DNA of 64,000 nucleotides from Cognatishimia maritima (GTDB lineage Bacteria; Pseudomonadota; Alphaproteobacteria; Rhodobacterales; Rhodobacteraceae). Shown here piece by piece: positions 39,678 to 60,710 of this stretch. The notes below the pieces were generated by a model that was given only the letters and a program-made list of their open reading frames with translations, searched no databases and had not been told where the DNA came from. Every line of letters starts with the position of its first letter. The stretch's first letter is position 1. Location: the NCBI RefSeq assembly GCF_900129685.1, contig NZ_FQWM01000003.1:145896-209895 (forward strand), given 5' to 3'. Both the position numbers and the translations under genes were made by a program.

Positions 39678-39702
39678 AAGTCCTTTCGGGTGACGCAGAG
39701 AC

Positions 39703-39727: not shown

Positions 39728-39742
39728 ATAGTTCACTCGTTC

Positions 39743-40696: not shown

Positions 40697-40720
40697 CAAC
40701 AAGTCTCCTCCTACTGTCGA

Positions 40721-41495: not shown

Positions 41496-42149
41496 TTACG
41501 TTTGAAGATAGGACAGAAAAGTTTGGATTTGCGCCGGTGTTTCGGCAATAAAATCGGCGCCGGCGTTCTGTAATTTTTCGGGCATTTGCCATCCCCAGGA
41601 AACGCCAATCGAGGAAATGCCTGCGGATGCTGCGGCAGAGATGTCGCTTACACCATCACCGACCAGTGCCAAAGGTGAATAGGTGCCCTGTTGACGTATT
41701 GCGATGATTTTTTCTGCCTTGGTTCCGGGGTCATCTCGCGTAAGCAGAACCGAGAAGAATTCGGAAATTTCATGGTACCCAATAAAGCGCTGGATGAACG
41801 CCTTGGGGGAGGCCGACAGGATACCCAGTGGCGTTTCGGACGAAAGGCGGCGCAGAGTTTCGATCATGCCCACAAAGGTTGGGGCTATGTCCCGGCGCTG
41901 TTTGAGCAAAAGTGTGGCATCAGCTGTGAAAGTTGATGGACAAAGTCCAAGCTGCAAAGCCAAAGCTTCGAAGGTGATTTTGTCAAGCTCAGCAAACGGA
42001 TTGGGCGGCAGTTCCGCTTGATACCCTTGGTTTTGGGCCGCTTGGGTGCAGATTTCCGTGTAGATGTGCAGCGAGTCCGCCAGTACACCGTCAAAGTCGA
42101 AAAGAAGCATATCCGTATCCGTTGAGGCGAGGATTAGAGGCGCGGCCAT
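41496..42149 (-). CDS. HAD-superfamily hydrolase (phosphoglycolate-phosphatase-like)
   Basis: This is a 217-residue HAD phosphatase with motif I 'LLFDFDGVLADS' (nucleophile D18, acid D20), motif II Ser in 'LGILSASPKAF', motif III Lys in 'GTKAEKIIAI', and motif IV 'LVGDGVSD'. A helical C1 cap lies between motifs I and II. It closes the ten-gene amine operon, 61 bases after the iron dehydrogenase. With a kinase at the head of the operon, it may remove the phosphate put on the substrate, or act as a housekeeping repair phosphatase. Confidence 0.85.
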   Translation of the reverse strand: MAAPLILASTDTDMLLFDFDGVLADSLHIYTEICTQAAQNQGYQAELPPNPFAELDKITFEALALQLGLCPSTFTADATLLLKQRRDIAPTFVGMIETLRRLSSETPLGILSASPKAFIQRFIGYHEISEFFSVLLTRDDPGTKAEKIIAIRQQGTYSPLALVGDGVSDISAAASAGISSIGVSWGWQMPEKLQNAGADFIAETPAQIQTFLSYLQT

Positions 42150-42210
42150 TCACCTTCAAATGATCACCGCGCCAGTGTTTCCTGCCTGTCTGTAGAGGCG
42201 TTAAGCCGTT

Positions 42211-43356
42211 TCAGAGAGCAGCTTGGAATAGGGTGCTCAAATTATCTTCGGTCAGCTTTACCGGGTTGCCACCACAGGATGGATCAATAATCGCGCCTTT
42301 GACCAGTTCGGGGATCGCGTTTTGGGTTACACCCAGATCGCCCAGCTTTCGTGGGATGCCCAGCGAGTCGTTGAAGTCCTGCACAAAAGCGCGGAAACCG
42401 TCAAATCCGCCTGAAATGCCCAGATATGCTGCAGCGCTGTTGAACCGATCCGCGATTGCGGGCGCATTGAATTCGAGCACGGCGGGCATGCAGACAGCGT
42501 TTGTCGTGCCATGATGGGTGTTGAATACCGCGCCGATCGGATGGCTCATGGCATGGATCGCTCCGAGGCCCTTCATAAAGGCTGTGGCACCCATGGCGGC
42601 CGCGCTCATCATCTGGGCGCGTGCTTCAATGTCGGACCCGTCGGCATAGGCGCGGGGCAGGTACTCCTTGACCAGTCGCATGCCCTCCAGGGCAATGCCC
42701 TGAGACATCGGATGGTAATGCGGGCTCGAAAAGGCCTCGACGCAATGGGCAAAGGCGTCAAGACCGGTGCCTGCGGTAATAAACTGCGGCATGCCCACGG
42801 TCAGCTCGGGATCGCAGATGACGACGCCGGGCAGAACCTTGGGATGAAAGATGATCTTCTTGGCGTGGGTTTCTGAGTTGGTGATGACGCTGGCGCGGCC
42901 TACTTCAGAACCCGTGCCGGCCGTTGTCGGTACGGCAACGATGGGGGCGATTGCATCCGCTTCGGCGCGTGTCCACCAGTCGCCGATATCTTCGAAATCC
43001 CAGACCGGGCGGGTTTGACCGGCCATAAAGGCCACCATCTTGCCCAGATCCAAACCCGAGCCGCCACCAAAGGCGATCACGCCGTCATGACCACCAGCCT
43101 TATAGGCGGCGACTCCGGCGTCGAGATTGGTTTCATTTGGGTTCGGATCAACATTGGAGAACAATCCGCGACCAAGGCCGGCAGCGTCGAGTATATTCAG
43201 TGTTTCCTTGGTGATCGGAAGGTCGGCCAATCCGCGATCCGTGACAAGCAACGGCTTCTTCATGCCAAGGGCTGCACAAGCTTCAGGCAGCTCCTTGATC
43301 CGGCCTGCGCCGAATTTGATGTTGGTGGGGTAAGACCAGTTTCCAACGAGAGACAT
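42211..43356 (-). CDS. Iron-containing alcohol dehydrogenase (type III)
   Basis: This is a 381-residue Fe-ADH with 'GGGSGLDLGKMVAF' (cofactor), 'VPTTAGTGSEV', and the metal ligands D200 and H204 in 'TAGTGLDAFAHCVEAF', H268 in 'LGAIHAMSHPIG' and H282 in 'NTHHGTTNAVCMP'. It oxidises a primary alcohol, or reduces an aldehyde, in the cytoplasm. It lies directly behind an aldehyde dehydrogenase, which suggests the sequence alcohol to aldehyde to acid, for example on a gamma-glutamyl-ethanolamide-like intermediate. That substrate is inference. Confidence 0.9.
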   Translation of the reverse strand: MSLVGNWSYPTNIKFGAGRIKELPEACAALGMKKPLLVTDRGLADLPITKETLNILDAAGLGRGLFSNVDPNPNETNLDAGVAAYKAGGHDGVIAFGGGSGLDLGKMVAFMAGQTRPVWDFEDIGDWWTRAEADAIAPIVAVPTTAGTGSEVGRASVITNSETHAKKIIFHPKVLPGVVICDPELTVGMPQFITAGTGLDAFAHCVEAFSSPHYHPMSQGIALEGMRLVKEYLPRAYADGSDIEARAQMMSAAAMGATAFMKGLGAIHAMSHPIGAVFNTHHGTTNAVCMPAVLEFNAPAIADRFNSAAAYLGISGGFDGFRAFVQDFNDSLGIPRKLGDLGVTQNAIPELVKGAIIDPSCGGNPVKLTEDNLSTLFQAAL

Positions 43357-43402
43357 GTGGTATTTCCTTCAATTTTCCGGCTGTTCCGACAAAGGGGATG
43401 TG

Positions 43403-44779
43403 TCAGGCAGTGATTTTCTTAAGATGGTAGCTCTTGGGACGGGTCAAGTTGTGATAGCCGATTTGCGACAACCCCCCGCCGCGCCCGGTGTTCTTGCAAC
43501 CGGTCCAGCATAGGCCCGGGTCCAGATAGTCGGCTCGGTTCATGAACACAGTGCCTGTTTCGATCCGGTCGCCCACATGTTCCGCCCGTTCCAGATTCCG
43601 TGTCCAGAGCGATGCGGTCAGGCCGAATTCACTGTCATTCATCAAGCGAATAGCCTCGTCATCCGAGGCGACTTTCATGATGCCGACAACAGGGCCAAAG
43701 CTTTCGTCCCGCATCACACGCATGTCATGGTTGACATTTGTCAGGATTTGCGGGGTCAGGTAGGCGCCGCCATCGTCTTCGGCAAAGGGGGCAATATGGG
43801 CGATGGCGCCGGCCTCAACTGCTTCGGCGATTTGGGCACGCACCTCATCGGCAAAGCGCACATTGGCCATAGGGCCGATGGTGGTTTCTGCGTCCAGAGG
43901 ATTGCCCAGCTTGTAGCCTTTGACGATGGCTACCGCCAATTCAACAAAAGAGTCATAGAGGCTTTCGTGCACATAAATCCGTTCAATTCCGCAGCAACAC
44001 TGGCCAGAATTGAACATCGCTCCGTCGACCAGCGTGTCAACTGCTGCACCAAGATCGGCATCTTCCATGACATAGGCCGGGTCTTTGCCGCCCAATTCGG
44101 TTCCAACACCGGTAAATGTACCCGCCGCCGCGCGCTCCATCGCGCGCCCACCTCCGACTGAGCCAGTGAAGTTTACAAAATCAAAGGCATTGCCCGCGAT
44201 TAGGTCATTAGTGACATCGTGACTTAGGAAAACGTTCTGGAACACGTCTTCTGGCACACCGGCCGCGTGGAAAGCCTGCGCCATGCGCTCGCCCACCAAA
44301 AGGGTCTGAGTAGCATGTTTCAGGATCACGGTGTTGCCCGCGATCAGGGCCGGAGCAACCGTGTTGATCGCGGTCATGTAGGGGTAATTCCATGGCGCCA
44401 CAACGAACACGACCCCGTGCGGGACACGCTTGATATAGCGTTTGAAGGTTTCGTCTTCGCCTACGCTAATGTCTGCCAGAGCGTCTTCGGCAATGGCCGC
44501 CATATGGCTGGCACGCTCATTGAAGCCCCCGAATTCGCCACCATAGCGAATTGGGCGCCCCATTTGCCACGCCAGTTCGGGCACGATGTCGTCATTCATC
44601 GCCCCCACGGCTTCAACACCTTTCATCACCAAGGCCGAGCGTTCGGCCAACGGGCGCGTTGCCCATGCGGCTTGCGCCTTACGGGCGCGACCAGCGGCTT
44701 CAAACGCTGACTCACGCGACAGGGTTTCGCGTTCGGCAAAGACAGATCCATCGATCGGAGAGATACATTTCAGAGTCAT
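43403..44779 (-). CDS. NAD(P)-dependent aldehyde dehydrogenase
   Basis: This is a 458-residue ALDH. The catalytic residues are visible: N131 in 'APWNYPYMTAINT', general-base E228 in 'GTELGGKDPAYV', and the nucleophile in 'FNSGQCCCGIERIYV' (C262 by spacing, with Cys on both sides). It is close to the succinate-semialdehyde/aminobutyraldehyde group. It begins five bases after the glutamine-synthetase-like gene. It would oxidise the aldehyde formed by the iron dehydrogenase or by deamination. Confidence 0.9.
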   Translation of the reverse strand: MTLKCISPIDGSVFAERETLSRESAFEAAGRARKAQAAWATRPLAERSALVMKGVEAVGAMNDDIVPELAWQMGRPIRYGGEFGGFNERASHMAAIAEDALADISVGEDETFKRYIKRVPHGVVFVVAPWNYPYMTAINTVAPALIAGNTVILKHATQTLLVGERMAQAFHAAGVPEDVFQNVFLSHDVTNDLIAGNAFDFVNFTGSVGGGRAMERAAAGTFTGVGTELGGKDPAYVMEDADLGAAVDTLVDGAMFNSGQCCCGIERIYVHESLYDSFVELAVAIVKGYKLGNPLDAETTIGPMANVRFADEVRAQIAEAVEAGAIAHIAPFAEDDGGAYLTPQILTNVNHDMRVMRDESFGPVVGIMKVASDDEAIRLMNDSEFGLTASLWTRNLERAEHVGDRIETGTVFMNRADYLDPGLCWTGCKNTGRGGGLSQIGYHNLTRPKSYHLKKITA

Positions 44780-44784
44780 GAGTG

Positions 44785-46149
44785 TCAGGCTTTCTCAAAT
44801 CCGCGTGCGATTTCCCAATCGGTCACGACGCGGTCAAATTCTTCTAGTTCTACTTCGGCGGCGCGGGTGTAGTGGTCGACAACCCAATCGCCCATCGCGC
44901 TGCGCAACATGTCCGAATTCCGCAGGGCTTCGGTCGCGGCGCGCAACGTATGTGGCACTTCGGCGATGTCTTTCATCGCGTATAGGTCGCCTGTCACCGG
45001 TTCCGGCAGGGCGAGCCCTTCCTCGATCCCCGCCAGTCCTGCGGCCAGCTGAGCCGCACAGGCAAGATAGGGATTGATGTCGGATCCAGGGATACGGCAT
45101 TCGATCCGCACGGCTTTCGTATTTTCTCCGACCAAACGGAAGCCAGCGGTGCGGTTGTCGACCGACCACGCGCTTTTGGTCGGGGCAAAAGTTCCCGGTA
45201 CGAAACGTTTGTAGCTGTTCACATAAGGCGCGAGAAAGACCATGCCGTCGGCGGCGTATTTGATCAGCCCCGCCACATAGCTGCCCATCAGTTTTGACAT
45301 GCTGCGCGGATTTTCGGGATCGAAGAACACGTTGTCTCCGTCGCGGAACAGCGATTGGTGAATATGCGCAGCGCTGCCGACCTTGTCATGGTGAACCTTG
45401 GGCAGGAAGCTGGCAGCGTGGCCTTTCTGATCGGCGATTTCTTTGATGGCCTGTTTCGAGACCGTGTGCTGATCGGCGGCCAACAGGGCATCGGCATAGC
45501 GGATGTTCAGTTCGGCCTGACCCGCCTCGGCTTCGCCTTTGGTGTTTTCCACAGGCACACCGGCTTCGACCAGCAGGTTGCGAATCGGGCGCATGACATG
45601 CTCTTCCCGGGTGGTCTGCAGAATGTGGTAGTCCTCGTTATAGCCGCCCAGCGTCGCCATATCGCGAAAACCGCCGCGGCGGATCTCGTCATAGCTTTTC
45701 TCGAACAGAAAAAACTCCAGTTCGGTCGCCATATAGGGCGTTAGGCCCATGGCCTCGGCCCGGGCGACCTGTCGTTTCAGGATCTGACGAGGCGAATGCG
45801 GTACCGGTTCGTGGGTATGATGGTCGATGACGTCGCACAGGACCAATACTGTGCCGTCCAACCAGGGAATGCGGCGCAAGGTACCAAGGTCGGGCTTCAT
45901 CACATAGTCGCCATAGCCCGCTTCCCAGCTTGTGGCGGCGTAGCCTTCCGGCGTAGCCATTTCCAGATCCGTGGCCAGCAAGTAATTGCAGCAATGGGTT
46001 TCCTTGTAGCCGCTCTCCAGGAAATTCGAGACGTGAAAGCGTTTACCCATCAGCCGCCCCTGCATGTCGACGAGACAGACCAGCACTGTATCCAGTATCC
46101 CGGCCTCTGCCTCCGATTTCAGGGTTTCAAGGGAAATCAAACCCGACAT
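44785..46149 (-). CDS. Glutamine-synthetase-family ligase (gamma-glutamylamide synthetase type)
   Basis: This is a 454-residue GS-fold protein: 'TLKSEAEAGILDTVLVCLVDMQGRLMGKR' (beta-grasp N-terminus), 'MATELEFFLFE', 'ENTKGEAEAGQAELNI', 'ASFLPKVHHDKVGSAAHIHQSLF', and 'ECRIPGSDINPYLACAAQLAAGL'. The N-terminal region and overall length match PuuA/IpuC/GmaS-type enzymes that join glutamate to an alkylamine with ATP, rather than the GlnA form, which carries a Tyr adenylylation site and other signatures. It overlaps the amidohydrolase gene by 13 bases. It would gamma-glutamylate the amine left after demethylation. Confidence 0.88.
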   Translation of the reverse strand: MSGLISLETLKSEAEAGILDTVLVCLVDMQGRLMGKRFHVSNFLESGYKETHCCNYLLATDLEMATPEGYAATSWEAGYGDYVMKPDLGTLRRIPWLDGTVLVLCDVIDHHTHEPVPHSPRQILKRQVARAEAMGLTPYMATELEFFLFEKSYDEIRRGGFRDMATLGGYNEDYHILQTTREEHVMRPIRNLLVEAGVPVENTKGEAEAGQAELNIRYADALLAADQHTVSKQAIKEIADQKGHAASFLPKVHHDKVGSAAHIHQSLFRDGDNVFFDPENPRSMSKLMGSYVAGLIKYAADGMVFLAPYVNSYKRFVPGTFAPTKSAWSVDNRTAGFRLVGENTKAVRIECRIPGSDINPYLACAAQLAAGLAGIEEGLALPEPVTGDLYAMKDIAEVPHTLRAATEALRNSDMLRSAMGDWVVDHYTRAAEVELEEFDRVVTDWEIARGFEKA

Positions 46150-46907
46150 TGGCCAGTCTCCATTCTGTTTGTCAAAGCAAGCGCATCCAGCGCATCGAGA
46201 ATTAGTGCCGCGGTGTCATTTGCAACCAAATGCTGTTGCTGCGGCGTTGCGATCATATCGTTGCGAAATTCCAGCATAACGTTAGCCCATCCTCGCGGCA
46301 GCGCGTGTTGTTTCAAGGTGTGCGTGACCCCATCCTCGGGGCCATAGGGTTCATTGCGTGCGGTTTTCAGTGCGGTGTGTGTCGCTGCCTTTACCAGCAT
46401 TTTGTCAGCGAGGCTGGTGTCATCGTCATGAAGGATGCCCAGTTGAACCTCGCGGGGCTTTCCGTGAAATACCGGGGTAAAGCTGTGCACCGTGACCAGA
46501 ACGCCAGTCTGTCTCTGATCCATCAGGTCGGACAGGGCAGTTTCAAAAGGCCGGTAGACGCTATCCACCCGTTCGGCCCGCTGTTCCGGTGTCAGATTGT
46601 GATTGCCGGGAATGTCATGGATTTCCGACACTTCGCGGATGGCACTGTCGGATTCAGGCGGACGGTTACAGTCGTAGACGAGCCTTGAGACAGTCGAGGC
46701 GACCAGCGGCGCATCTAGGATATCGGACAAATCTCTGGCCACGCCATAGGCGCCCGGGTCCCAGGCAGCATGGCTGTTCGCGGCCTCCTCGCTGAGCCCC
46801 AGCCCACCGTAGCGGGCCGGGATATGCTGCGAGGCATGTTCACAGACCAGAACAATGTTCGACGCGCCCGAACCGTTTAAGACGATGACGGAAGTATCGT
46901 CCATCAC
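46137..46907 (-). CDS. N-formylglutamate amidohydrolase family protein
   Basis: This is a 256-residue zinc hydrolase of the FGase/HutG2 family: 'VLVCEHASQHIPARYGGLGL', 'AAWDPGAYGVARDLSD', 'VYDCNRPPES', 'LVTVHSFTPVF' and 'ANVMLEFRNDMI' carry the metal-binding acidic and His residues. No histidine-degradation genes are nearby. Next to a gamma-glutamyl ligase, an activity on a gamma-glutamyl or N-acyl-glutamyl compound is plausible. It overlaps the DMGDH stop by four bases (ATGA). Confidence 0.85.
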   Translation of the reverse strand: MMDDTSVIVLNGSGASNIVLVCEHASQHIPARYGGLGLSEEAANSHAAWDPGAYGVARDLSDILDAPLVASTVSRLVYDCNRPPESDSAIREVSEIHDIPGNHNLTPEQRAERVDSVYRPFETALSDLMDQRQTGVLVTVHSFTPVFHGKPREVQLGILHDDDTSLADKMLVKAATHTALKTARNEPYGPEDGVTHTLKQHALPRGWANVMLEFRNDMIATPQQQHLVANDTAALILDALDALALTNRMETGQCRV

Positions 46908-49348
46908 ACTTTCACCCGCTCCATTTTGGGATCAAACAGCGGCGCCAGCGTGACCTCGCAAGGGACCCGCACGGTGGCGACTTCCAGCTCGTAAGTCCCG
47001 CTGTTGATAAAGTCGCGGTCCACCCCGCCGTCATGACGCACGTAGCCCATTGCTATGGATTTGCCGATCGTGTGGCCATAACCGGCCGAACTGATGTAGC
47101 CGACACGCTCGCCGTTGCGGTAAATGGTTTCCCGGCCGGACAGAATGACGTCGCCATCAGTGGTGAAGGTGGCCAGCATCTTCTTAAGTTTGCCGCCTCG
47201 TTGTTCGGCAACGGCCTCGCGTCCCTTGAACGGAATATCCTTCTTCATCTTCACGGCCCAGCCCAGCCCAGCCTCGTCAGGCGTGTGATCGGGGCCAATG
47301 TCGGATGGCCAGGCACGATAGCCCTTCTCAAGCCGCAGTGTTTCGATTGCCCGGTAGCCTGCGTCGACCAGCCCGTGTTCGGCACCGGCTTTGTGCAGCG
47401 CGTCATAGACCGCGGTGGCATATTCCACTGGCAAATGAAGTTCCCAGCCGAGTTCGCCCACATAAGTGACGCGCAAGGCGTTGACCGGGCATCCCGCGAT
47501 GCCGATGGTCTTTGCCTTGCCGAATGGGAAGCCTTCATTGGAAACATCGTCACGTGTCACCGACTGAAGGATTGTACGTGCCTTGGGTCCCATCAACGAC
47601 AAGACCGCATATGAAGACGTGACATCGAACAGCTGCGCATTCATGCCGTCGGGGATGTTCTTGCAAATCCAGTCGAAGTCATGAGTGGCATAGCCGGTGC
47701 CTGTGACGATGTAGTATTCGTCTTCGGCGACACGCACACAGGTCAGGTCACATTCGATGCCAGCCCGATCATTCAGCATCTGGGTATAGATCAGAGAGCC
47801 GACCGGCTTGGCCACGTCATTGGCAGCGATCCAGCTGAGGGCCGCTTCTGCATCCGGGCCCTTCAGGGCGAATTTGGCAAATGAGGTCTGGTCGAAAAGG
47901 ACAGCCGATTCACGGCAAGCGCTATGCTCTCGTCCCACTGGCGTGTGCCAGTTCGGGCGCTCGAACGTGTAAATGTCGCGCTGATCTTCACCTGCCGCCG
48001 TGTCAGCGTACCAGTTGGGACGTTCCCAGCCGAGTTTTTCGCCGAACACGGCGCCTTGGGCGCGCAGCGTGTCATAAAGCGGCGACTTGCGGCAAGGTCG
48101 GCCCGAGTCATGTTCTTCAGAGGGCCAGGCCATGGTGTAGTGCTTGCCATAGGCCTCGATCGTGCGGGTGCGAATCCAGTCGTCGTCGAAATGGGGGCGA
48201 CCAAAGCGGCGGATATCTACAGGCCACAAGTCAAACGGAGGCTCACCCTTAGCAACCCATTCCGCCAACGCCATGCCCGCGCCACCGCCAGCGGCAATGC
48301 CATAGGCGTTGAAGCCGGCTCCAACAAAAAAGTTCTTCAGTTCCGGCGCTTCCCCAAGGATGAAGTTGCCATCCGGCGTAAAGCTTTCTGGCCCGTTCAC
48401 CAACTCTTTGATCCCGGCGGTTTCCAGTGCCGGAACCCGGCCCAGCGACAGTTCCATCAGCTGTTCGAAATGGTCGAAATTGCTGTCCAGAAGCGTGTAG
48501 TGAAAGCCTTGCGGAATACCGTTGGTGGCCCAGGGGATCGGGTTGGGCTCGTAGCCGCCCATCACCAGCCCGCCAACCTCTTCCTTGTAGTAGGTCAGAC
48601 GGTCCGGGTCGCGCAGCGTGGGCAAGTTGGCAGGCACACCTTCGATCCGTTCGGTCACCATGTATTGATGCTCCATCGGCACCAGCGGCACATTTACACC
48701 TACGGATTTCGCGAAAGTCCGGGTCCACTGGCCGCAGCAAGCAATCACGATCGGGGTCTCGATCCGGCCTTTTTCGGTTTCGACAGCCTTGATCACACCC
48801 TTTTCAATATCGACTGACGTGACTTTGGTGTCTTCGAATATCCGCGCCCCGGCCATGCGCGCGCCCTTGGCCAGCGCTTGGGTGATGTCAGAGGGGTTGG
48901 CCTGACCGTCGGTCGGCAGATAGGCCGCACCAATGACATCGTCGATGGTCATCAACGGCCACAATTCCTGCGCCTCTTTCGGAGTCAGCAACTGCATGTC
49001 CAACCCAAAGGAATGTGCCGTGGTGGCCTGGCGTTTCACTTCGGTCCATCGCTCCGGATTACAGGCAAGCCGTAACCCGCCATTCATCTTCCAGCCCGTG
49101 CCCAGCCCGGTTTCCTGTTCCAGTGAATTATAAAGATCGACCGAATAGCCCAGCAGCTGGGTGATATTCGCGTTTGAACGCAATTGGCCGACGAGACCCG
49201 CAGCGTGGAAGGTTGTCCCTGATGTGAGTTTCTTGCGCTCGACCAGAACCACGTCCCAGCCCATCTTGGCAAGATGATACGCCGTCGAGCATCCGACGAT
49301 CCCGCCGCCAACGATGACGGCCTGTGCGGTGTTAGGAAAATCGCTCAT
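46904..49348 (-). CDS. FAD-dependent dimethylglycine/sarcosine-dehydrogenase-like protein with GcvT domain
   Basis: This is an 814-residue two-part flavoprotein. Residues 1-370 form a DAO FAD domain (GGGIVG at about 14-19) with a candidate flavinylated His48 in 'SGTTFHAAGL', followed by an FAO_M linker. Residues about 430-805 form a GcvT aminomethyl/folate-binding domain ('YVGELGWELHLPVEYATAVYDAL', 'LRLEKGYRAWPSDIG'). Family members oxidise N-methyl groups and pass formaldehyde to tetrahydrofolate. The aromatic residue before the flavin His is Phe here, while the second copy has Trp. It lies two bases after the kinase. It should demethylate an N-methylated amine. Confidence 0.88.
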   Translation of the reverse strand: MSDFPNTAQAVIVGGGIVGCSTAYHLAKMGWDVVLVERKKLTSGTTFHAAGLVGQLRSNANITQLLGYSVDLYNSLEQETGLGTGWKMNGGLRLACNPERWTEVKRQATTAHSFGLDMQLLTPKEAQELWPLMTIDDVIGAAYLPTDGQANPSDITQALAKGARMAGARIFEDTKVTSVDIEKGVIKAVETEKGRIETPIVIACCGQWTRTFAKSVGVNVPLVPMEHQYMVTERIEGVPANLPTLRDPDRLTYYKEEVGGLVMGGYEPNPIPWATNGIPQGFHYTLLDSNFDHFEQLMELSLGRVPALETAGIKELVNGPESFTPDGNFILGEAPELKNFFVGAGFNAYGIAAGGGAGMALAEWVAKGEPPFDLWPVDIRRFGRPHFDDDWIRTRTIEAYGKHYTMAWPSEEHDSGRPCRKSPLYDTLRAQGAVFGEKLGWERPNWYADTAAGEDQRDIYTFERPNWHTPVGREHSACRESAVLFDQTSFAKFALKGPDAEAALSWIAANDVAKPVGSLIYTQMLNDRAGIECDLTCVRVAEDEYYIVTGTGYATHDFDWICKNIPDGMNAQLFDVTSSYAVLSLMGPKARTILQSVTRDDVSNEGFPFGKAKTIGIAGCPVNALRVTYVGELGWELHLPVEYATAVYDALHKAGAEHGLVDAGYRAIETLRLEKGYRAWPSDIGPDHTPDEAGLGWAVKMKKDIPFKGREAVAEQRGGKLKKMLATFTTDGDVILSGRETIYRNGERVGYISSAGYGHTIGKSIAMGYVRHDGGVDRDFINSGTYELEVATVRVPCEVTLAPLFDPKMERVKV

Positions 49349-49350
49349 TT

Positions 49351-50244
49351 TTATCCTCTTTGGGATTGATATTCGGAAAGGGCCAGCCGGTAGCGGGCCA
49401 GGTTGTCAGCCGTATAGGCGGCATAGTCGAAGTCGATCTCGGAGGTGATTTCCGAGACCATGCTCCACATGGTTTCGCGCAGCAGCGAGGCGCATTTCAT
49501 CGCGCCATAGCTGTTCATTAGGGTCTCGTCCGGCGGAGTGCCGAAATAGGTTTCCAGTATCACCATCTCGGCCTCCGGCGGCAGGTCGCAATTGGTGGCG
49601 AGACCTCCGAGATCGAACAAGGGTGAATTGAAGCCGCCATATTCCCAGTCGATCAGCCAAAGCCGGTCTGGGCCGCGGAGGATATTGGCGGGAAGCAGGT
49701 CGTTGTGACTAAGAACAAGATCAACCTTGCCAACCGCTTGCTCCAGCGCCGCAGCCTCTTGCATCAACTCTGGAAGGCGGTCCATTTGAGTAGAAGCGTT
49801 GCGAGAAAGGAAAGCGGCATAGTTGCGAAGGACGTGAAACACCCAGAAGGTCAGAATGGGCCCGCGCACTTTGCTAGTTACGGTTTCATGCACAGACCGG
49901 ATCAGGTGTACGGTATTCACCAGCGTTTCTGCATCATGCAGGTCAGCGGCCTTCAGCGGCGTTGACTCGACGAAGTCCAGAACCAAAACGCCCGGTTCGG
50001 TATGATTGATCGCAGGCGAAATTCCCGCTTCTTGTGCAGCGTAGGAGATCGCCTGTTCATTGAACCGCATCACCCCATGCTCGGGAATATCCTCGCCGAA
50101 GCGCACCACATATTTTCCAGTGTTGTCGGTGACAAGCAGGTTAACATTCGTGATACCGCCGCCCAGCTGTTCGATTTCGGGCGTGCCCTGCCAGCAGGGC
50201 AAAGCGCGGGCAGTTGCGAATGCGTGTTCGAGAGCCATCGTCAT
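49351..50244 (-). CDS. Choline/ethanolamine-kinase-like phosphotransferase
   Basis: This is a 297-residue aminoglycoside-phosphotransferase-fold kinase with the Brenner motif 'LVLSHNDLLPANILRG', the metal-binding Asp segment 'LWLIDWEYGGFNSPLFDLGGL' and an N-terminal 'GGGITNVNLLV' nucleotide loop. 'WEYGGFN' is diagnostic of the choline/ethanolamine kinase (LicA) branch. It sits between the permease (ATGA overlap) and the DMGDH gene. A kinase between importer and demethylase suggests that an alcohol-bearing amine is phosphorylated on entry. Confidence 0.87.
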   Translation of the reverse strand: MTMALEHAFATARALPCWQGTPEIEQLGGGITNVNLLVTDNTGKYVVRFGEDIPEHGVMRFNEQAISYAAQEAGISPAINHTEPGVLVLDFVESTPLKAADLHDAETLVNTVHLIRSVHETVTSKVRGPILTFWVFHVLRNYAAFLSRNASTQMDRLPELMQEAAALEQAVGKVDLVLSHNDLLPANILRGPDRLWLIDWEYGGFNSPLFDLGGLATNCDLPPEAEMVILETYFGTPPDETLMNSYGAMKCASLLRETMWSMVSEITSEIDFDYAAYTADNLARYRLALSEYQSQRG

Positions 50245-52244
50245 TTCACACCCAGCCTTTCCTGCGAGCTCTTTGAAAGGGCCGTGACAATCCGGTCGGC
50301 AATGATGGCAATAAAGGCAACCGCAAGCCCGGCGATGATACCTTGTCCGGTATTGGCCTTAGTCAGAGCGATATAGACTTCCTGACCAAGATCACGGGTG
50401 CCAACGAGCGCGGTAATGACCAGCATAGAAAGGGCCAGCATGATGGTCTGGTTTAGACCCAGCAGTAGCGAGGGCGCGGCCAGCGGTAGTTTGATCCGCC
50501 ACAGAAGTTGGCGTTCGGTACAGCCTGAGACCTTACCAGCTTCGATCAATTCGGAGTCGATCGACCGGATGCCATGGGCGGCGTAGCGCACGGCTGGGGC
50601 CAGGGCATAAAGCACCACCGCGATCATGGCCGAGAAGTCACCCACCCGGAACAGCATCACGACCGGGATCAGGTACACGAAGCTGGGCATGGTTTGCAGC
50701 GTATCGATTAATGAGCCGATCACGCTGTTGGCGCGGGCGCTTTGACCAGCCCAAATGCCCAAAGGAATACCGATGGCGCTGGCGATCAGAACCGAGACCG
50801 ATACCAGATAGACGGTGACCATCGCCTTGGCCCAAAGCCCGTTTGCCGCGATGAATAGTGTCATCAGAGCAGAAATAAGGCCAAGTTTCCAACCTCCCAG
50901 ACGCCCTGCTGCGATGCCAACAGCGATGATGCCCCAAGCCCAAGGGATGCCACCGAAAAACCGTTTTACCGGCAGCAAAAGGGTGGTCAGGAAGAACGTC
51001 TTGATGGCTTCGAACGTGTCAAAGAAGGTGATGTTGATCCACTCCATCATCGCGGTCCAGAACGCACCGGTGGTGATGGTGAAGGCCTCAGGCAGCACGC
51101 GGAATGCAGGCAGGTAGAAGCTCGTCAAAGTGGTCACGAAAATCAGCGCAAGGACCGTGCTTATCAGCGGATGGCGCTGATATACTGGGAGTGTCGGATC
51201 TGGGCGGGGACGCACGCGACGGATGGCGAAGGCCTGACTGACACGGTCCAGAGCGATGGCCATCACCACGATGGCCAATCCGGCCTCGATGCCACCTCCA
51301 ATATCCAGCCGGCGCAGTGAGGTCAGAACATCATAGCCGAGACCGCCAGCACCAATCATCGATGCGATAATTACCATGTTGAGGGTCAGCATGATCACCT
51401 GATTGACCCCGACCATCAGTGACGGAAGCGCGGTAGGCAGCATCACTTTCCACATCAACTGACGGGGTTTGCAGCCCACCATTCGACCGGCTTCGATTAT
51501 CTCTTCCGGCACAGACTGCAACGCCACTGTTGAGATCCGTACCATCGGCGGCATGGCGTAGATCACCGTGGCGACTAGGGCAGAGATCGGACCAAAACCG
51601 AACAGGAACAAGATCGGCACGAGGTAGGCAAAGACCGGGACGGTCTGCATCAGGTCGAGGACCGGGCGCAGTGCACGTTCGACCCATGGGTGGCGATAAG
51701 ACAGAATGCCAAGCATGAGACCGCCCGCCACACCGATCGGCACTGCGATCAAAACCGAGGCCAGCGTGACCATGGCGCTTTCCCATTGGCCAAAGATAGC
51801 CAGATAGGCAAAACACAGACCCGCCAGCAAGGCCAGAGACTTGTTTTTCGCGTAGATTGCCACCGCAGCCATGGTGCCAATGATGGCGATCCAGCTGATC
51901 GAGGGTGCTAATTCAATAGCCTGCTGCCCCTGGCCGACCGAGAAACCATCTACCAGCATTGATCGAACCAATTGATAGGGAAGTTCGATCACACCCGCGA
52001 TGAATCGGGTGAGGTCACGGAATGAGAACAGGCCAAAATGCGCATCTTCCACAAGCCAGGACATAGCGTCCGAAATCCAGCCATCCAACGGCAGTTCGTA
52101 TTGCTTGGGAAAGCGGATGATCCAGCGCGCGTCCAATGCCTGGTACAGGCTGAACGACCACTTCGACAGAGCCCAAGTCACCAAGAATAGGCCCAGCCAA
52201 AACGGCCTCGAGCCATTGGTCAGGGATTTGAGAAACCTCGTCAT
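50241..52244 (-). CDS. Betaine-type ABC permease, two ProW modules in one polypeptide
   Basis: This is a 667-residue membrane protein made of two homologous ProW/OpuAB units, each with its own coupling loop: 'EEIIEAGRMVGCKPRQLMWKVMLPTALPSL' in the first half and 'SELIEAGKVSGCTERQLLWRIKLPLAAPSL' in the second. Ordinary ProW has about 280-350 residues and works as a homodimer. Here the dimer is fused, so each half can diverge. About 12-14 hydrophobic segments are seen. Four-base overlaps link it to the ATPase before and the kinase after. Confidence 0.87.
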   Translation of the reverse strand: MTRFLKSLTNGSRPFWLGLFLVTWALSKWSFSLYQALDARWIIRFPKQYELPLDGWISDAMSWLVEDAHFGLFSFRDLTRFIAGVIELPYQLVRSMLVDGFSVGQGQQAIELAPSISWIAIIGTMAAVAIYAKNKSLALLAGLCFAYLAIFGQWESAMVTLASVLIAVPIGVAGGLMLGILSYRHPWVERALRPVLDLMQTVPVFAYLVPILFLFGFGPISALVATVIYAMPPMVRISTVALQSVPEEIIEAGRMVGCKPRQLMWKVMLPTALPSLMVGVNQVIMLTLNMVIIASMIGAGGLGYDVLTSLRRLDIGGGIEAGLAIVVMAIALDRVSQAFAIRRVRPRPDPTLPVYQRHPLISTVLALIFVTTLTSFYLPAFRVLPEAFTITTGAFWTAMMEWINITFFDTFEAIKTFFLTTLLLPVKRFFGGIPWAWGIIAVGIAAGRLGGWKLGLISALMTLFIAANGLWAKAMVTVYLVSVSVLIASAIGIPLGIWAGQSARANSVIGSLIDTLQTMPSFVYLIPVVMLFRVGDFSAMIAVVLYALAPAVRYAAHGIRSIDSELIEAGKVSGCTERQLLWRIKLPLAAPSLLLGLNQTIMLALSMLVITALVGTRDLGQEVYIALTKANTGQGIIAGLAVAFIAIIADRIVTALSKSSQERLGVK

Positions 52245-53275
52245 CCCGCGCTCCGTCCAACCATGATATCGATTGCTGCGCGCGAGTCGATGGTGCCAAC
52301 CGGCTGACCGTCTTCGTCCAGAACCCTGAATGGCAGAGTAGAATCATCCAACTGAAGGATGGTGTCGGCCACTGTAAGGTGGCCGGGCAGGTCTCCGGCA
52401 TAGTCGTTTTCTGGGACTCCGGCGGACATGATGGATTTCAACCGCATGACTTTAGCACGGGGAATGTGGCGGGTGAACTCCTCGACATAGGGCGTAGCCG
52501 GTTTCATCACCAGGTTTTCGGGCGTGTCGATCTGTTCGATACAACCGTCTTTCATCACTGCGATGCGGTCGGCCAGACGGATAGCCTCGTCAAAGTCGTG
52601 GGTGATGAACACGATCGTCTTGTGCAGCATAGATTGCAGACGCAGGAATTCGTCCTGCATTTCCCGACGGATCAGCGGATCAAGCGCCGAGAACGGCTCA
52701 TCAAGGAACCACAGATCAGGGTCGGCCACCAACGAACGCGCGATCCCAACGCGCTGTTGCTGGCCACCGGACAATTGCCGGGGATAATGGTCTTCACGCC
52801 CTTGCAAGCCGACGGTTTCGATCATCTGACGGGCACGGTTTTCGCGGTCTTTCAGGGGGAAGCCCTGAATTTCCAGCGGGAAAGCGGCGTTTTGCAAAAC
52901 GGTCAGATGCGGCAGCAGTGCGAAATGCTGAAAGACCATGCCCATTTTCTTGCGACGCACATCGATCAATTCAGAGTCGCCCATGGTCAGCAGATTGCGG
53001 CCTTCGAAGTTGATTTCGCCCGCGGTTGACTCAACGAGGCGCGAAAGGCAGCGCACCAACGTGGACTTTCCTGATCCGGAAAGCCCCATGATGACGAAAA
53101 TCTCGCCCTCAAATATTTGGACATTGGCATCGCGCACGGCACCGACCATTTGGGCGGCTTCAAAATCTTCTGAGGTTGGTGCGTCATTGTGTTTCTTAAG
53201 GAAGTCTTCGGGGTGTGGGCCGTAGATCTTCCAAACACCTCGGCACTCCAGTTTTACGGAACGCTCCATAGTCAC
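52241..53275 (-). CDS. Betaine-type ABC transporter ATP-binding protein (ProV/OpuAA type)
   Basis: This is a 344-residue ATPase with the ProV-like N-terminal extension ('VWKIYGPHPEDFLKKHNDAP'), Walker A '[17 protein letters not shown]', signature '[15 protein letters not shown]', Walker B 'LWFLDEPFSALDPL', and switch 'ITHDFDEAIRLADRIAVM'. A shortened C-terminal CBS-like part (about residues 280-340, 'VADTILQLDDSTLPFRVLDEDGQPVG') may sense ionic strength or a nucleotide. It follows the binding-protein gene after 91 bases. Confidence 0.9.
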   Translation of the reverse strand: MTMERSVKLECRGVWKIYGPHPEDFLKKHNDAPTSEDFEAAQMVGAVRDANVQIFEGEIFVIMGLSGSGKSTLVRCLSRLVESTAGEINFEGRNLLTMGDSELIDVRRKKMGMVFQHFALLPHLTVLQNAAFPLEIQGFPLKDRENRARQMIETVGLQGREDHYPRQLSGGQQQRVGIARSLVADPDLWFLDEPFSALDPLIRREMQDEFLRLQSMLHKTIVFITHDFDEAIRLADRIAVMKDGCIEQIDTPENLVMKPATPYVEEFTRHIPRAKVMRLKSIMSAGVPENDYAGDLPGHLTVADTILQLDDSTLPFRVLDEDGQPVGTIDSRAAIDIMVGRSAG

Positions 53276-53318
53276 CTCGGGGATTTGGCCTTGTCGGGCC
53301 AGATTGCTGGGAAAGGGG

Positions 53319-53349
53319 GGAGAAGGCGCGGGGAGTGGCCGCCTTCTCC
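53319..53349 (-). other. Intercistronic hairpin after the betaine-type binding-protein gene
   Basis: GGAGAAGGCG (53319-53328) and CGCCTTCTCC (53340-53349) pair perfectly around 11 bases. The hairpin is in the gap between binding-protein stop and ATPase start, with no T-run on the minus strand. Confidence 0.65.
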
Positions 53350-53366
53350 GAGCGGATCAAGGAGGG

Positions 53367-54308
53367 TTACTTGATCCAGGACGACCAGGTGGCTTCGTTA
53401 GCGCTCATCCATTCGGAAACAACGCTGCTGATGCTTTCACCATCGAGGTCGACTTTGCCGACAAGGGCGCCCATCGTGTCGTTGTCGATGTCAAAGGCGT
53501 TGATCGCGCTGGCAGCACCCGGCCATTTGTCGGCAATGCCGGACCAGGCCACTTTCCAGATCGGACCGGTCGGCTTGCCGCAATCATAGGCCGAGTCCGG
53601 GTTCACGCCGACAGACGGGTCGTTGTAACATTCGTCAGAGTAGGGCGGGAATTCGACGAATTTGCCGTCATACTTGGCGGTCGCCCAATGTGGAGAATAG
53701 ATCCAAAGCACGATCGGGGCTTCACGCTGATAGGCCGATTCCAGTTCGGCAAAAAGCGCAGCGTCGGTGCCAGCGTGCACGACTTCGAAATCCATGCTTA
53801 GGGCCTCGACGCGTTCGTCGTCAAAGCCGCCCCAAGTCACAGGACCGCCTAGGTAACGCCCCATCGGCGCGGTTTCAGGGGTGGCGAATTCGGCGGCGCA
53901 GTCATTCAGTGCCTGCCAGTCGGGCAGGCCGGGGCACAGCTTTTCCATATAGGACGGATACCACCATTCCTCGATGGCTTTCATACCGGTTGGACCCATG
54001 TTGACGACCTTGCCGGTGCCAAAGGCTTCGTCCATCGCCTCGCGACCAGTGGTTTCCCAGATTTCCATAGCGACATGCAGGTCGCCGGTCTTAAGTCCGG
54101 CAAACTGAGCGATGTAATCGGCCTGCACGTATTCCACATTATAGCCAGCCTTTTTCAGAACTTCCCCCATGATGGTGGTGGTGATGATCTGGCCCGTCCA
54201 GTCATGCGTCGTCAGCTTGATCGGATCCAGAGATTCAACCTCGGCCATCGCGCCCGCTGCCGAGAGGGCTGTCAGAAGCGCCGCAGAAAAAGGTGTGAAT
54301 TTTGTCAT
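53367..54308 (-). CDS. Betaine/choline-type ABC transporter substrate-binding protein (OpuAC/ProX type)
   Basis: This is a 313-residue periplasmic protein with a signal peptide at residues 1-22 (MTKFTPFSAALLTALSAAGAMA). It has the OpuAC pattern: 'KLTTHDWTGQIITTTIMGEVLKKAGYNVEYV', 'DLHVAMEIWETTGREAMDEA', 'WWYPSYMEKLCPGLPDW'. Abundant Trp suits an aromatic cage for a quaternary or methylated ammonium head. ATG 54308 follows GGGAGG; the frame upstream to 54410 is non-coding. It is the first gene of the ten-gene operon and divergent from a DeoR regulator. Confidence 0.9.
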   Translation of the reverse strand: MTKFTPFSAALLTALSAAGAMAEVESLDPIKLTTHDWTGQIITTTIMGEVLKKAGYNVEYVQADYIAQFAGLKTGDLHVAMEIWETTGREAMDEAFGTGKVVNMGPTGMKAIEEWWYPSYMEKLCPGLPDWQALNDCAAEFATPETAPMGRYLGGPVTWGGFDDERVEALSMDFEVVHAGTDAALFAELESAYQREAPIVLWIYSPHWATAKYDGKFVEFPPYSDECYNDPSVGVNPDSAYDCGKPTGPIWKVAWSGIADKWPGAASAINAFDIDNDTMGALVGKVDLDGESISSVVSEWMSANEATWSSWIK

Positions 54309-54394: not shown

Positions 54395-54470
54395 CAACAT
54401 AAATCAACATAAAAAGTTAGAAAACGTTGTAAAAGGTAAAAAATATGTGGAAATTTGTGGAAATTAGTGG
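54395..54470. repeat. Ten-bp-periodic repeat array, copy 1 (probable DeoR operator)
   Basis: CAACATAAAT/CAACATAAAA (from 54395 and 54405) form one tandem pair. ATGTGGAAAT (54445), TTGTGGAAAT (54455) and TAGTGGCTAT (54465) form a second tandem in the opposite orientation. The unit is near TGTKG plus five A/T-rich bases with exact 10-bp phasing. It lies between the divergent starts of the amine operon and the DeoR gene. An array with the same layout is at 59543. Confidence 0.65.
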
Positions 54471-54519: not shown

Positions 54520-55290
54520 ATGGAGACTCGGGTTAATCACCGACAGAAGGCTATTCTGGACGAACTGCACCGGTCTGGTGGCTCGATGCGGATACATGCG
54601 CTGGCCGAGGCTCTGGATGTGACCGAAGAAACCGTGCGGCGAAATCTCAAGGTTCTTGCAGATGATGGCTTGGTAGAGCGCATGCACGGTGGCGTTCGTA
54701 TCGTCAGCGATAGCACTGAGGCCGATTTCAATGCCCGATATCGCGAGAATCCAATCGCCAAACAGCGGATTGCACAGCACGTCGCCTCAATGTTGCCTAA
54801 TGATGTTTCCCTGTTTCTCGATATTGGCAGTACCACCGCTCATATCGCAGACGCATTGCGCGACCACCGCCGACTGGTCGTGGTGACGAACTCAGTCTAT
54901 GTGGCTTTCCGCCTGGCCACCCGCAATGAAAACCGGGTGTTTCTGGCTGGCGGGGAATTGCGGGGCCATGACGGCGGAGCTTTCGGCGCGGATGCCATGG
55001 AGTTTGCCGCGAACTTCAACACCGACTTCGCGGTCTTGTCCTCTGCCGGGATCAACGAAAAGGGGTTCTTTTTGTACGACCTTGAGGAAGCTCGGTTTTC
55101 GCGCCTGATCATGCGGCAGGCCAACACCAGCATCATCGCGGCGGACTTCAGCAAGTTCGGCCGGGTCGCGCCGGTCGATATTGGTCACCCGGAACGGGTT
55201 GATTACCTTGTCTGCGACAAGGAACCGCCTAAAGAAATTGCCTCCGCCGCGTTGGTCGACTGGGGCACAGACATCCAAGTAGCCAAATAG
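54520..55290 (+). CDS. DeoR-family transcriptional regulator
   Basis: This is a 256-residue DeoR/GlpR-type repressor with a winged helix at about 5-55 ('RQKAILDELHRSGGSMRIHALAEALDVTEETVRRNLKVLADDGLVERMHGGVRI') and a sugar-isomerase-like sensor ('VSLFLDIGSTTAHIADAL', 'RLVVVTNSVYVAFRLA', 'VFLAGGELRGHDGG', 'IIAADFSKFG'). DeoR sensors usually bind phosphorylated metabolites, which agrees with the two kinases nearby. It is divergent from the amine operon and five bases before the IMPase-like gene. Confidence 0.88.
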   Translation: METRVNHRQKAILDELHRSGGSMRIHALAEALDVTEETVRRNLKVLADDGLVERMHGGVRIVSDSTEADFNARYRENPIAKQRIAQHVASMLPNDVSLFLDIGSTTAHIADALRDHRRLVVVTNSVYVAFRLATRNENRVFLAGGELRGHDGGAFGADAMEFAANFNTDFAVLSSAGINEKGFFLYDLEEARFSRLIMRQANTSIIAADFSKFGRVAPVDIGHPERVDYLVCDKEPPKEIASAALVDWGTDIQVAK

Positions 55291-55295
55291 GAGAA

Positions 55296-56075
55296 ATGAT
55301 GAGCCCCCCGATAGAAAAGATCGGTGAAATCGCCGAAAGGATTGCCCGCGAAGCCAGTGCGATCCCGATGTCACATTTCCGCGCGCCACTGGATATTGAC
55401 GCCAAGGCCGACGAAAGCCCAGTGACGGTAGCAGACCGCGAGACCGAAGCTTTCATCCGAGACGCCTTGCAAAGCGCCTTTCCGGGGCACGGTATCTTTG
55501 GCGAGGAATACGGGATTTCCGGGTCCTTGGACGGAGAAACTTGGATCATTGACCCGATTGACGGCACCCGGACTTTCATTACCGGCTCCCCCCTATTCGG
55601 CATGTTGATGGGATACCTTGTCGGGGGTCGCCCCAAGATTGGCCTAGTCCGCATGCCGGCGCTGGATGAAACCTATATCGGCCTTGAAGGGCAGGGGGCG
55701 ACACTGAACGGTGCACGGATTCGGTGCCGCGATACCCGCGAGTTGGGAGAGGCGATGATCTATGTAAACGAAGCGGAGCGGCTTCAATCGATGAACCCGG
55801 ACCTGTTCGGGCGGCTCTGCCGCATAGGCCATACCAGACGGATGGCCTATGATTGTTACCCGCATGCGCTGGTGGCATCGGGACAAATTGATGCGGTGGT
55901 GGATTGCAGGCTGGAGCCTTACGATTTTCTGCCTCTTGTCGGTTTGATCAAGGCCTCAGGGGGCGTCATCACTGATTGGGAGGGCAATGACCTGACAATG
56001 AAGTCTGATGGCAAGGTCGTCACCGCGACCACGCCTGAACTGCTGCAGGCCATGCTGGATGTCGTCAATGGCTGA
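55296..56075 (+). CDS. Inositol-monophosphatase-family phosphatase
   Basis: This is a 259-residue Mg-dependent phosphatase: 'GIFGEEYG' (about 67-73), 'WIIDPIDGTRTFITGSPLFG' (metal motif DPIDGT at 86-91), and late 'CRLEPYDFLPLVGLIKASGG' in place of the usual WD motif. It resembles the histidinol-phosphatase (HisN)/IMPase subgroup. No inositol or histidine genes are close. Beside two choline-kinase-like genes it may hydrolyse a phosphorylated amine alcohol. It ends at a strong shared terminator. Confidence 0.87.
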   Translation: MMSPPIEKIGEIAERIAREASAIPMSHFRAPLDIDAKADESPVTVADRETEAFIRDALQSAFPGHGIFGEEYGISGSLDGETWIIDPIDGTRTFITGSPLFGMLMGYLVGGRPKIGLVRMPALDETYIGLEGQGATLNGARIRCRDTRELGEAMIYVNEAERLQSMNPDLFGRLCRIGHTRRMAYDCYPHALVASGQIDAVVDCRLEPYDFLPLVGLIKASGGVITDWEGNDLTMKSDGKVVTATTPELLQAMLDVVNG

Positions 56076-56145: not shown

Positions 56146-57075
56146 TTAGCCAAGCTTCACCGCAGCCACATGCCCTGGGAAATCATCACTGTTCATCAGC
56201 GCCTTGCAACGATCAAAGCGGGTGGTTGCATAGGCCCAGAAATCCTCTGCCGGATTGTTGTCGGTGTGTTGGATCAACCCCCACAACGTCCAGAGCAGGT
56301 CGCACATGGCCTTGTAGATCACAACGCGCCCCTTTTCCTCTGCGGTGGGCTCGCGCCCGAAATAGCCGCGTAGAAGTTCGGCCTCCTGACTTTCGTCCAT
56401 ATTGGCTTCGACCGAAAGATCACCAACATCCCAAAGCGGGTCGTTCATGCCGGAATACTCCCAGTCAACGATCCACATGGCCTCGCCATCGTCAAGAAAG
56501 TTCTCGCAAAGTGGATCACAGTGGCACGGCGCCAAGCGGGCTGGGTTGGCGTTGAGGGCTTCCTTTATCGGCTCGGCCGCCTTGACCACCACGTGGTAGC
56601 CTTCCGGCAGGTCCACGTCTTTTGTTGCCAGTACCTTGAGGTATTCATCGATCATGGCGAACAGCTCGAAGCGAAACTCGAACGCTTCGCCCGAATTGTG
56701 CAGCTTGGCCAACGCCTTACCCGCTCGCTCCGGAGACCCTGAGCGAGACTTAAACAACGCGGGCGTCATAGTTTCAATGTTTTCTATCGCTCGGGTGACC
56801 ATTTCGCCCGAATTGGCATCGGCCCATAGAACCTCGGCAGAAATACCGGCACGCCAGGCGGCATTGGCGTTGGTGATCTCGATTGATCGGTCGATATATT
56901 CATCGGTGCCTTCGCCGGGGATGCGCACAATCACGCGAGCAGTTGGGGTTTCAACAAGATGGACAAGGTTGGTCAGCCCGCCAAGACGCGTGATACTACA
57001 CCGATCCGACGCAACAGTTTCAAAGCCAGGAGTCTTCCGCAACGTGGCCAGAACGGTTTCCGTATGCTCGTACAT
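56146..57075 (-). CDS. Choline/ethanolamine-kinase-like phosphotransferase, second copy
   Basis: This is a 309-residue kinase of the same LicA/choline-kinase branch: 'GGLTNLVHLVETPTARVIVRIPGEG', Brenner motif 'LAPCHCDPLCENFLDDG' and 'MWIVDWEYSGMNDPLWDVGDLS'. 'CHCDPLCEN' and 'WEYSGMNDP' are the hallmarks. It is nine bases after the second DMGDH gene on the same strand, which repeats the kinase-DMGDH pairing of the main operon, in reversed order. Confidence 0.87.
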   Translation of the reverse strand: MYEHTETVLATLRKTPGFETVASDRCSITRLGGLTNLVHLVETPTARVIVRIPGEGTDEYIDRSIEITNANAAWRAGISAEVLWADANSGEMVTRAIENIETMTPALFKSRSGSPERAGKALAKLHNSGEAFEFRFELFAMIDEYLKVLATKDVDLPEGYHVVVKAAEPIKEALNANPARLAPCHCDPLCENFLDDGEAMWIVDWEYSGMNDPLWDVGDLSVEANMDESQEAELLRGYFGREPTAEEKGRVVIYKAMCDLLWTLWGLIQHTDNNPAEDFWAYATTRFDRCKALMNSDDFPGHVAAVKLG

Positions 57076-59508: not shown

Positions 59509-59542
59509 TTCCGATTCCTCACTGAATTCGGAATTAGACTGC

Positions 59543-59590
59543 CACAAAAACAACAAAAAACAACAAAAAATGTGGAAAGATGTTGAAATT
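59543..59590. repeat. Ten-bp-periodic repeat array, copy 2 (probable DeoR operator)
   Basis: CACAAAAA, CAACAAAAAA (59551) and CAACAAAAAA (59561) are followed in the other orientation by TGTGGAAAGA (59571) and TGTTGAAATT (59581), all in 10-bp phase. This is the same inverted pair of tandem TGTKG-A/T units as at 54395-54470, here before the second DMGDH gene. Confidence 0.65.
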
Positions 59591-60660: not shown

Positions 60661-60710
60661 TTTCGCGCCTGACGGTTGCGTACGAGAAGGATTTCTGGGA
60701 AGGAATAACC

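Follow-up and report, generated by a model that had tools for sequence, protein, structure and literature searches.

What does a gene of choline-kinase type do in an operon whose other genes point to the uptake, demethylation and gamma-glutamylation of an amine? The question is raised by a locus of Cognatishimia maritima (Rhodobacteraceae), contained in a stretch of 64,000 nucleotides of contig NZ_FQWM01000003.1 (hereafter, the window, to which all positions refer). A preliminary description had outlined a ten-gene operon and had left its kinase unexplained. Here we argue that the operon probably serves the catabolism of N-methylated ethanolamines, with N,N-dimethylethanolamine and/or N-methylethanolamine as the most likely substrates, and we propose that the kinase may make an O-phospho amine that the demethylases would use. 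The operon consists of two joined modules, namely, module A (uptake, kinases, demethylases, phosphatase and regulators) and module B (an amidohydrolase of the FGase family, a ligase, an aldehyde dehydrogenase and an iron-type alcohol dehydrogenase, Fe-ADH).

Both the layout of the open reading frames and the profile matches confirm the ten genes with their named domains, all on the minus strand, from 54308 (or 54410) down to 41496. Those of module A are:

53367..54308, minus strand: opuAC, putative periplasmic binding protein of a TmoX-like ABC importer (PF04069, 173 bits; longest reading frame from 54410)
52241..53275, minus strand: proV, ABC ATPase (ABC_tran) of the betaine/choline family (TIGR01186, 332.2 bits, exceeding the cut-off of 326.6)
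50241..52244, minus strand: proW, fused double permease of 667 residues with two BPD_transp_1 stretches (TIGR03416, 427 bits, cut-off 363)
49351..50244, minus strand: kin1, choline/ethanolamine-kinase-type phosphotransferase (PF01633, Choline_kinase, 82.2 bits)
46904..49348, minus strand: dmg1, FAD- and folate-dependent N-demethylase of the dimethylglycine dehydrogenase (DMGDH) type, with the domains DAO-FAO_M-GCV_T-GCV_T_C

They are followed by those of module B:

46137..46907, minus strand: fga, putative gamma-glutamylglycine amidohydrolase of the FGase family (PF05013, 134.1 bits; the etoX-cluster neighbour called GGAH in PMC10132767)
44785..46149, minus strand: gs, putative ethanolamine gamma-glutamylase, a glutamine-synthetase-like ligase (Gln-synt_C; best PDB match 5dm3, 678.9 bits)
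43403..44779, minus strand: aldh, aldehyde dehydrogenase (PF00171, Aldedh) that would give gamma-glutamylglycine, in the position of GAADDH of PMC10132767
42211..43356, minus strand: Fe-ADH, putative gamma-glutamylethanolamide dehydrogenase (PF00465), in the position of GETADH of PMC10132767

The packing is tight: proV and proW, proW and kin1, and dmg1 and fga overlap by 4 bases each and fga and gs by 13, with only 2 bases between kin1 and dmg1 and 5 between gs and aldh. Wider gaps separate opuAC from proV (91 bases), aldh from Fe-ADH (46) and Fe-ADH from the tenth gene, which encodes a HAD hydrolase (61), the last two genes being the looser members. Position 54308 is an ATG ahead of a signal peptide, at codon 35 of the longest opuAC frame. 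Since the order opuAC-proV-proW-kin1-dmg1 is found again in many relatives, as is the order fga-gs-aldh-FeADH, the operon is more than a chance arrangement. Terminator-like sites between 40900 and 60800 were not above chance (17 found, 21.1 in shuffles). None of eight congeners has a close relative of fga (one gave no match, seven gave paralogues of 33-35% identity), which places the operon outside the genus core.

Module B has a known counterpart. In Phaeobacter sp. MED193, the cluster MED193_10021-10056, induced on phosphorylethanolamine, comprises GGAH, EtoVWX, ETAGA, GAADDH and GETADH; EtoX binds ethanolamine with a Kd of 7.9 uM, and the route leads from ethanolamine via gamma-glutamylethanolamide and gamma-glutamylglycine to glutamate and glycine (PMC10132767). 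Module B matches this cluster gene for gene. The earlier statement that no described pathway has this gene set thus has to be narrowed: the B half has been described, and only the A half, with its kinases and demethylases, and the joining of A to B appear undescribed. For module A, no description was found in the literature searched, which leaves out most subscription journals, and the homarine pathway, considered as a lead, was dropped as no paper was found to fit. Being established in other organisms, the steps from ethanolamine onwards can be carried over to the window by homology: the ligase would form gamma-glutamylethanolamide, Fe-ADH and the aldehyde dehydrogenase would oxidise it to gamma-glutamylglycine, and the amidohydrolase would free glutamate and glycine. 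In contrast to the EtoX-type systems of Phaeobacter and Chromohalobacter (Csal_0678), with which it shares the four enzymes and the predicted chemistry, the window's operon draws its uptake and regulation from module A, which would feed in methylated amines; the EtoVWX TRAP genes and RpiR were not seen in the operon or among its window neighbours, the whole genome not having been searched for EtoX.

The catalytic part of the ligase aligns with solved glutamine synthetases across the arginine-rich glutamate site. For its first 80 residues there is no such alignment, and no Gln-synt_N match was obtained at E 0.001. The ligase stays below the curated cut-offs of GlnA (251.9 of 429.15 bits), of the type III enzyme GlnT (238.7 of 469.6 bits) and of the PuuA model; glutamine synthesis was accordingly rejected as its function. 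In relatives L032 and L034, a TRAP transporter is found inside the B set, and the TRAP binding protein of the latter has a single PDB match, 4uab (616.3 bits), which we take to be the ethanolamine protein Csal_0678 of Chromohalobacter; 5dm3 is presumably a neighbour of Csal_0678. A search for the FGase gene in 60 relatives, with ten neighbourhoods inspected, indicated that the four B genes usually occur without a kinase and a demethylase.

The system also turned out to be larger than the ten genes at which its border had been drawn. The divergent pair deoR-imp (54520-56075) and the pair kin2-dmg2 (56146-59508) accompany the operon in relatives and, given also that dmg2 has the same operator-like repeat as the opuAC promoter, belong to the system:

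54520..55290, plus strand: deoR, divergent regulator of the DeoR/GlpR family (PF00455, 148 bits)
55296..56075, plus strand: imp, IMPase-family phosphatase, nearest to the histidinol-phosphatase HisN (TIGR02067, 229.6 bits, below the cut-off of 275.15)
56146..57075, minus strand: kin2, second choline-kinase-type phosphotransferase (PF01633, 63.5 bits)
57085..59508, minus strand: dmg2, second DMGDH-type demethylase with the same four domains (longest reading frame from 59694)

Is the joining of the two modules meaningful? We searched 295 genomes of the family, one per genus, with thresholds of E 1e-30 for kin1, 1e-45 for the FGase and 1e-150 for the ligase; since each genome represents one genus, the Fisher values below are uncorrected for descent or genome size. 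The FGase is found in 136 of the 295 genomes and kin1 in 58, mostly at different places, which are joined in the window. The ligase is present in 54 of the 58 genomes with kin1, as compared to 124 of the 237 without it (p = 1.2e-9). With trimethylamine monooxygenase (Tmm) as a control, no such link is seen (39/66 with Tmm, 139/229 without; p = 0.89). Three of the four kin1 genomes that lack the ligase have an FGase (G012, G029 and G060, of which G029 is 79% and G060 86% complete), and the FGase itself, as a marker of module B, shows a weaker link to kin1 (38/58 versus 98/237; p = 0.001). Further, the 35 genomes with kin2 all contain kin1 at another genome position, with 23 genomes having kin1 alone. 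Thus, module A depends on module B; kin2 is nested in kin1, and kin1 nearly so in the ligase, which is the pattern expected of a linear path from a more methylated via a less methylated amine to ethanolamine. The ligase and EutB also exclude each other (ligase in 2 of 19 EutB genomes and in 176 of 276 others; p = 5e-6), as expected if both serve ethanolamine; EutB (PF06751) has no match in the window's genome.

Physical linkage was followed in 106 kin1 loci (105 without the window's own), the gene counts being those of tblastn and many loci being cut by contig ends; B genes were looked for within stretches of at most 20 kb. Of these loci, 80 were chosen by kin1 alone from among the matches listed and the other 25 for kin1 or kin2. 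Among the 80, six have B genes near kin1 (L078, L079, L093, L116, L135 and L140; four with the FGase), as against 0.37 expected on the assumption of one B locus in each 4-Mb genome; together with L057, L064 and L076, this makes nine of the 105. The FGase and glutamine-synthetase-like proteins beside module A in Shinella (L074), at 39% and 26% identity, were not counted as B. The arrangements differ: module B follows dmg1 on the same strand (window, L078), follows imp (Leisingera daeponensis), lies on the opposite strand (Litoreibacter halocynthiae) or is accompanied by TRAP genes (L116, L064). In Salipiger abyssi, the order is ABC-kin1-dmg1-ETF-folD-purU-FGase-GS-ALDH-FeADH-glyA, with another glyA, another purU and an L-serine ammonia-lyase gene upstream; this stretch reads like a whole pathway, from the importer, the kinase and the demethylase via an electron carrier and, for the methyl groups, FolD and PurU to module B and glyA. 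In Nitratireductor sp. OM-1, kin1 (42%) and dmg1 (61%) are followed by EutH, which scores over its cut-off, with a divergent DeoR gene in front.

These data bear on the possibility that module A serves another N-methyl compound, such as a trimethylamine-N-oxide-like one or a betaine, and that its joining to the ethanolamine module is incidental. The binding protein is indeed nearest to TmoX, and in clusters of the Salipiger type kin1-dmg1 lie amid Tmm, a Tdm-like gene and mgs genes. Still, the strength of the link to the ligase, with no comparable one for Tmm, the several separate A-B arrangements, the presence of EutH beside kin1-dmg1 and the replacement of three TmoX pocket residues in nearly every relative (see below) make an incidental join highly improbable. 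As a separate observation, L056, L057, L085, L089, L093 and L094 carry kin1-dmg1 inside a trimethylamine cluster with Tmm, a Tdm-like GCV_T+DUF1989 protein, a P450 and mgs genes.

Returning to the proposed catabolism of methylated ethanolamines, the kinases are the component that calls for an explanation. The structure model of kin1 (pLDDT 94.6, from an alignment of 36 rows) has choline/ethanolamine kinases as all of its 35 best structural matches (Z from 29.5 to 23.6), ahead of homoserine kinase (22.9) and of aminoglycoside kinases, which reach 21.3 at most. With the HND...N and DW motifs retained, the kinases share the fold and the HxD...N and D motifs with LicA, human choline kinase and the Mesorhizobium loti protein 3dxq, but they are set in a catabolic context, not in that of lipid or cell-wall synthesis. 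In human choline kinase, the tryptophans of the WxxW motif form the choline cage. This motif is present in 40 of 40 kin2 sequences, whereas kin1 has ExxW in 81 of 81, with Glu257 in place of the first tryptophan, in a comparison where the alignment to LicA can shift by one turn. Hence the more methylated amine may be the one suited to kin2, and an amine with an N-H group the one suited to kin1. Kin1 relatives without a demethylase occur in a different setting in L061/L115, L143, L153, L155 and L156, perhaps with another function, and a small class I methyltransferase gene lies beside or divergent from kin2 in L069, L070, L074, L086 and L146.

Both demethylases have the complete domain order of DMGDH (dmg1 scores 529.6 and 525.1 bits against the human and rat enzymes) and its aligned HAAGL motif, the histidine of which we take to be the site of covalent FAD attachment. 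They form two separate clades, distinct from four further DMGDH-like proteins that the genome encodes. At E 1e-20, eight proteins of this genome are related to dmg1; the neighbourhoods of those on contigs C9 and C3 were inspected and showed no relative of kin1 or kin2. Two more DMGDH-like genes of this genome, around an AraC/GlxA-like gene (L166:7046-13000), possibly encode its dimethylglycine and sarcosine dehydrogenases. The FAD-GcvT enzymes of choline-glycine betaine catabolism similarly pass methyl groups to folate (PMC4744692); dmg1 and dmg2 differ from them in being paired with kinases and a phosphatase.

The simplest reading of the pairing of kinases with demethylases, together with the HisN-like phosphatase and the DeoR-type regulators, is phosphorylation, demethylation and dephosphorylation in turn. 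The ABC transporter would import the methylated amine, and the kinases would phosphorylate its hydroxyl, kin2 acting on the more and kin1 on the less methylated form; dmg2 and then dmg1 would move the methyl groups to tetrahydrofolate, the phosphate serving as an anionic handle in the role that the carboxylate plays in dimethylglycine; finally, imp would release ethanolamine to module B. The phosphatase step is favoured by the closeness of imp to HisN, which acts on an amino-alcohol phosphate. A precedent is provided by the Pbf FAD oxidoreductases, DAO-domain flavoproteins that act on N-methyl-2-aminoethylphosphonate. In this N-methyl amine, a phosphorus acid forms the handle, although as a phosphonate, not a phosphate ester, and phosphonoacetaldehyde is produced directly (PMC10590968). 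In general terms, O-phosphorylation would make methylated amino alcohols accessible to demethylation by DMGDH-type enzymes, with phosphate taking the place of the carboxylate; in its boldest form, this previously undescribed route would lead from choline to ethanolamine without glycine betaine via both kinase-demethylase pairs. We put the route forward tentatively, as falling a little short of an even chance. The preliminary description's outline of uptake of a methylated ethanolamine, demethylation to folate, gamma-glutamylation, oxidation and hydrolysis is supported, as the B half is the MED193 pathway and genomes with module A nearly always have the ligase.

A role for HAD as a conserved phosphatase was rejected, as it is not conserved and imp fits better:

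41496..42149, minus strand: HAD hydrolase (PF13419), a possible extra phosphatase

Its membership is doubtful, since among the 105 related loci it has one weak match (39%).

Could choline be the true substrate, phosphorylated and then stripped of three methyl groups as phosphocholine, bypassing glycine betaine? The importer is of the choline/trimethylamine N-oxide type with a conserved tryptophan cage, a TmoX from SAR11 binds choline with a Kd of 2.5 uM (PMC8918994), and kin2 retains the WxxW motif of choline kinases. The closest solved relative of opuAC is 4xz6 (261.8 bits), and the pocket positions were mapped by alignment to it with the residue list of PMC8918994. Of the seven residues that make up the pocket in R. 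pomeroyi TmoX, four are kept (Trp55, Trp102, Glu131 and Trp177, in 60 of 60 opuAC relatives) and three are replaced in nearly every relative (Phe106 by Gly, in 59 of 60, Phe220 by Trp and Trp222 by Tyr). The protein is thus predicted to have an onium pocket for a ligand other than trimethylamine N-oxide; the importer also differs from TmoXWV, the system with the nearest solved binding protein, in its single fused permease. Against choline, the module in the window contains no quaternary demethylase, and flavin amine dehydrogenases depend on an unshared electron pair of the nitrogen and are not known to act on quaternary amines. In addition, a betA gene over its cut-off is found on contig C3 of the host amid ALDH-, SoxA-, sulfatase- and DMGDH-like genes, so that the standard choline route seems to be present apart from the operon. 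Choline as the substrate is therefore quite unlikely; betaine uptake followed by plain choline oxidation fits poorly with the separate betA locus and was rejected.

With methylated ethanolamines kept as the preferred substrates, another role of the kinases has to be considered: they might make the inducer of DeoR, or a lipid side product, with the demethylases using the free amine. DeoR-family regulators usually sense phosphorylated compounds, and deoR is present in 66 of the 106 kin1 loci; for comparison, opuAC is present in 69 and kin2 in 41. Nevertheless, the gene right after kin1 encodes a demethylase in 95 of these loci, even where no importer adjoins, each demethylase group is paired with its own kinase group, and the phosphatase is found with the set in 41, all of which renders a purely regulatory or lipid-related role of the phosphorylation unlikely.

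Whichever compound is sensed, the promoters of module A share a sequence element:

54395..54470: operator-like repeats between opuAC and deoR, three matches to CMACAWAWNNCMACAWA with at most one mismatch
59542..59567, plus strand: the same operator-like repeat upstream of dmg2, matched in the window scan and as a site in relatives

These direct repeats, in which CMACAWA recurs every 10 bases, mark both promoters, with four matches in the window against 0.15 expected and no other match there; as the pattern was drawn from the window's own sites, this count alone is circular, and the independent part comes from the relatives. There, 10 of 56 stretches between opuAC and deoR, counting that of the window, and 6 of 30 upstream of dmg2 contain a site. 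The density is 0.85 and 0.59 per kb, respectively, roughly a hundredfold above the 0.005 per kb elsewhere, a value that still includes three window sites outside the chosen borders. An inverted-repeat operator was rejected, since no palindrome recurred and the direct repeats did. DeoR may control both promoters. Beyond dmg2 lies a further regulator:

60603..61472, plus strand: second DeoR-family regulator, whose homologues adjoin dmg2 in 15 relative loci

Between it and dmg2 there is an AraC-type regulator gene (59686-60660), for which GbdR, known from choline metabolism, is the closest model (176 of 480 bits).

Several observations weigh against the proposed pathway. No dmg directly follows kin1 in 11 of the 106 loci (one at a contig edge), and imp is present in only 41. 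At the thresholds used, the ligase is missing from 4 and the FGase from 20 of the 58 kin1 genomes; the low-identity kin1 group shows no FGase excess (8/19 versus 128/276; p = 0.81), with the ligase in 18 of 19. Furthermore, kin1 leans weakly to Tmm (20/58 versus 46/237; p = 0.02), and the two modules are mostly unlinked, with no B gene in 96 of 105 locus stretches.

The surroundings of the module add some isolated observations. In Shinella sp. HZN7, a gene for a formaldehyde-sensitive repressor comes right after dmg1 (L074:15395-15667), which would agree with a release of the methyl groups as formaldehyde or methylene-tetrahydrofolate. A sulfatase/phosphoesterase-like gene lies near dmg1 in two loci (L062:13074-14765 and L124:3514-5205; best model PehA, below cut-off). 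Two Rieske oxygenase genes, one weakly similar to the glycine betaine monooxygenase GbcA, adjoin kin1-dmg1 at L066:6199-8540 and might provide a first step for a quaternary amine. In the window itself, a tripartite tricarboxylate-type transporter set (tctA, tctB and tctC-like) with a GntR-like regulator, recognised by eye, lies downstream of the operon (37025-40702).

Lipids of bacteria and algae carry methylated ethanolamines as headgroups. If the proposed pathway is correct, marine Rhodobacteraceae would turn these compounds into one-carbon units, glutamate and glycine, and phospholipid turnover would be tied to the cycle of methylated amines. Two groups of kinases and two groups of demethylases would be assigned, and kin1 and kin2, the latter found in 35 of the 295 genomes, would become marker genes for survey data. 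The operon also allows a simple test of a chemical idea, namely, that phosphate may serve as a temporary handle for demethylation.

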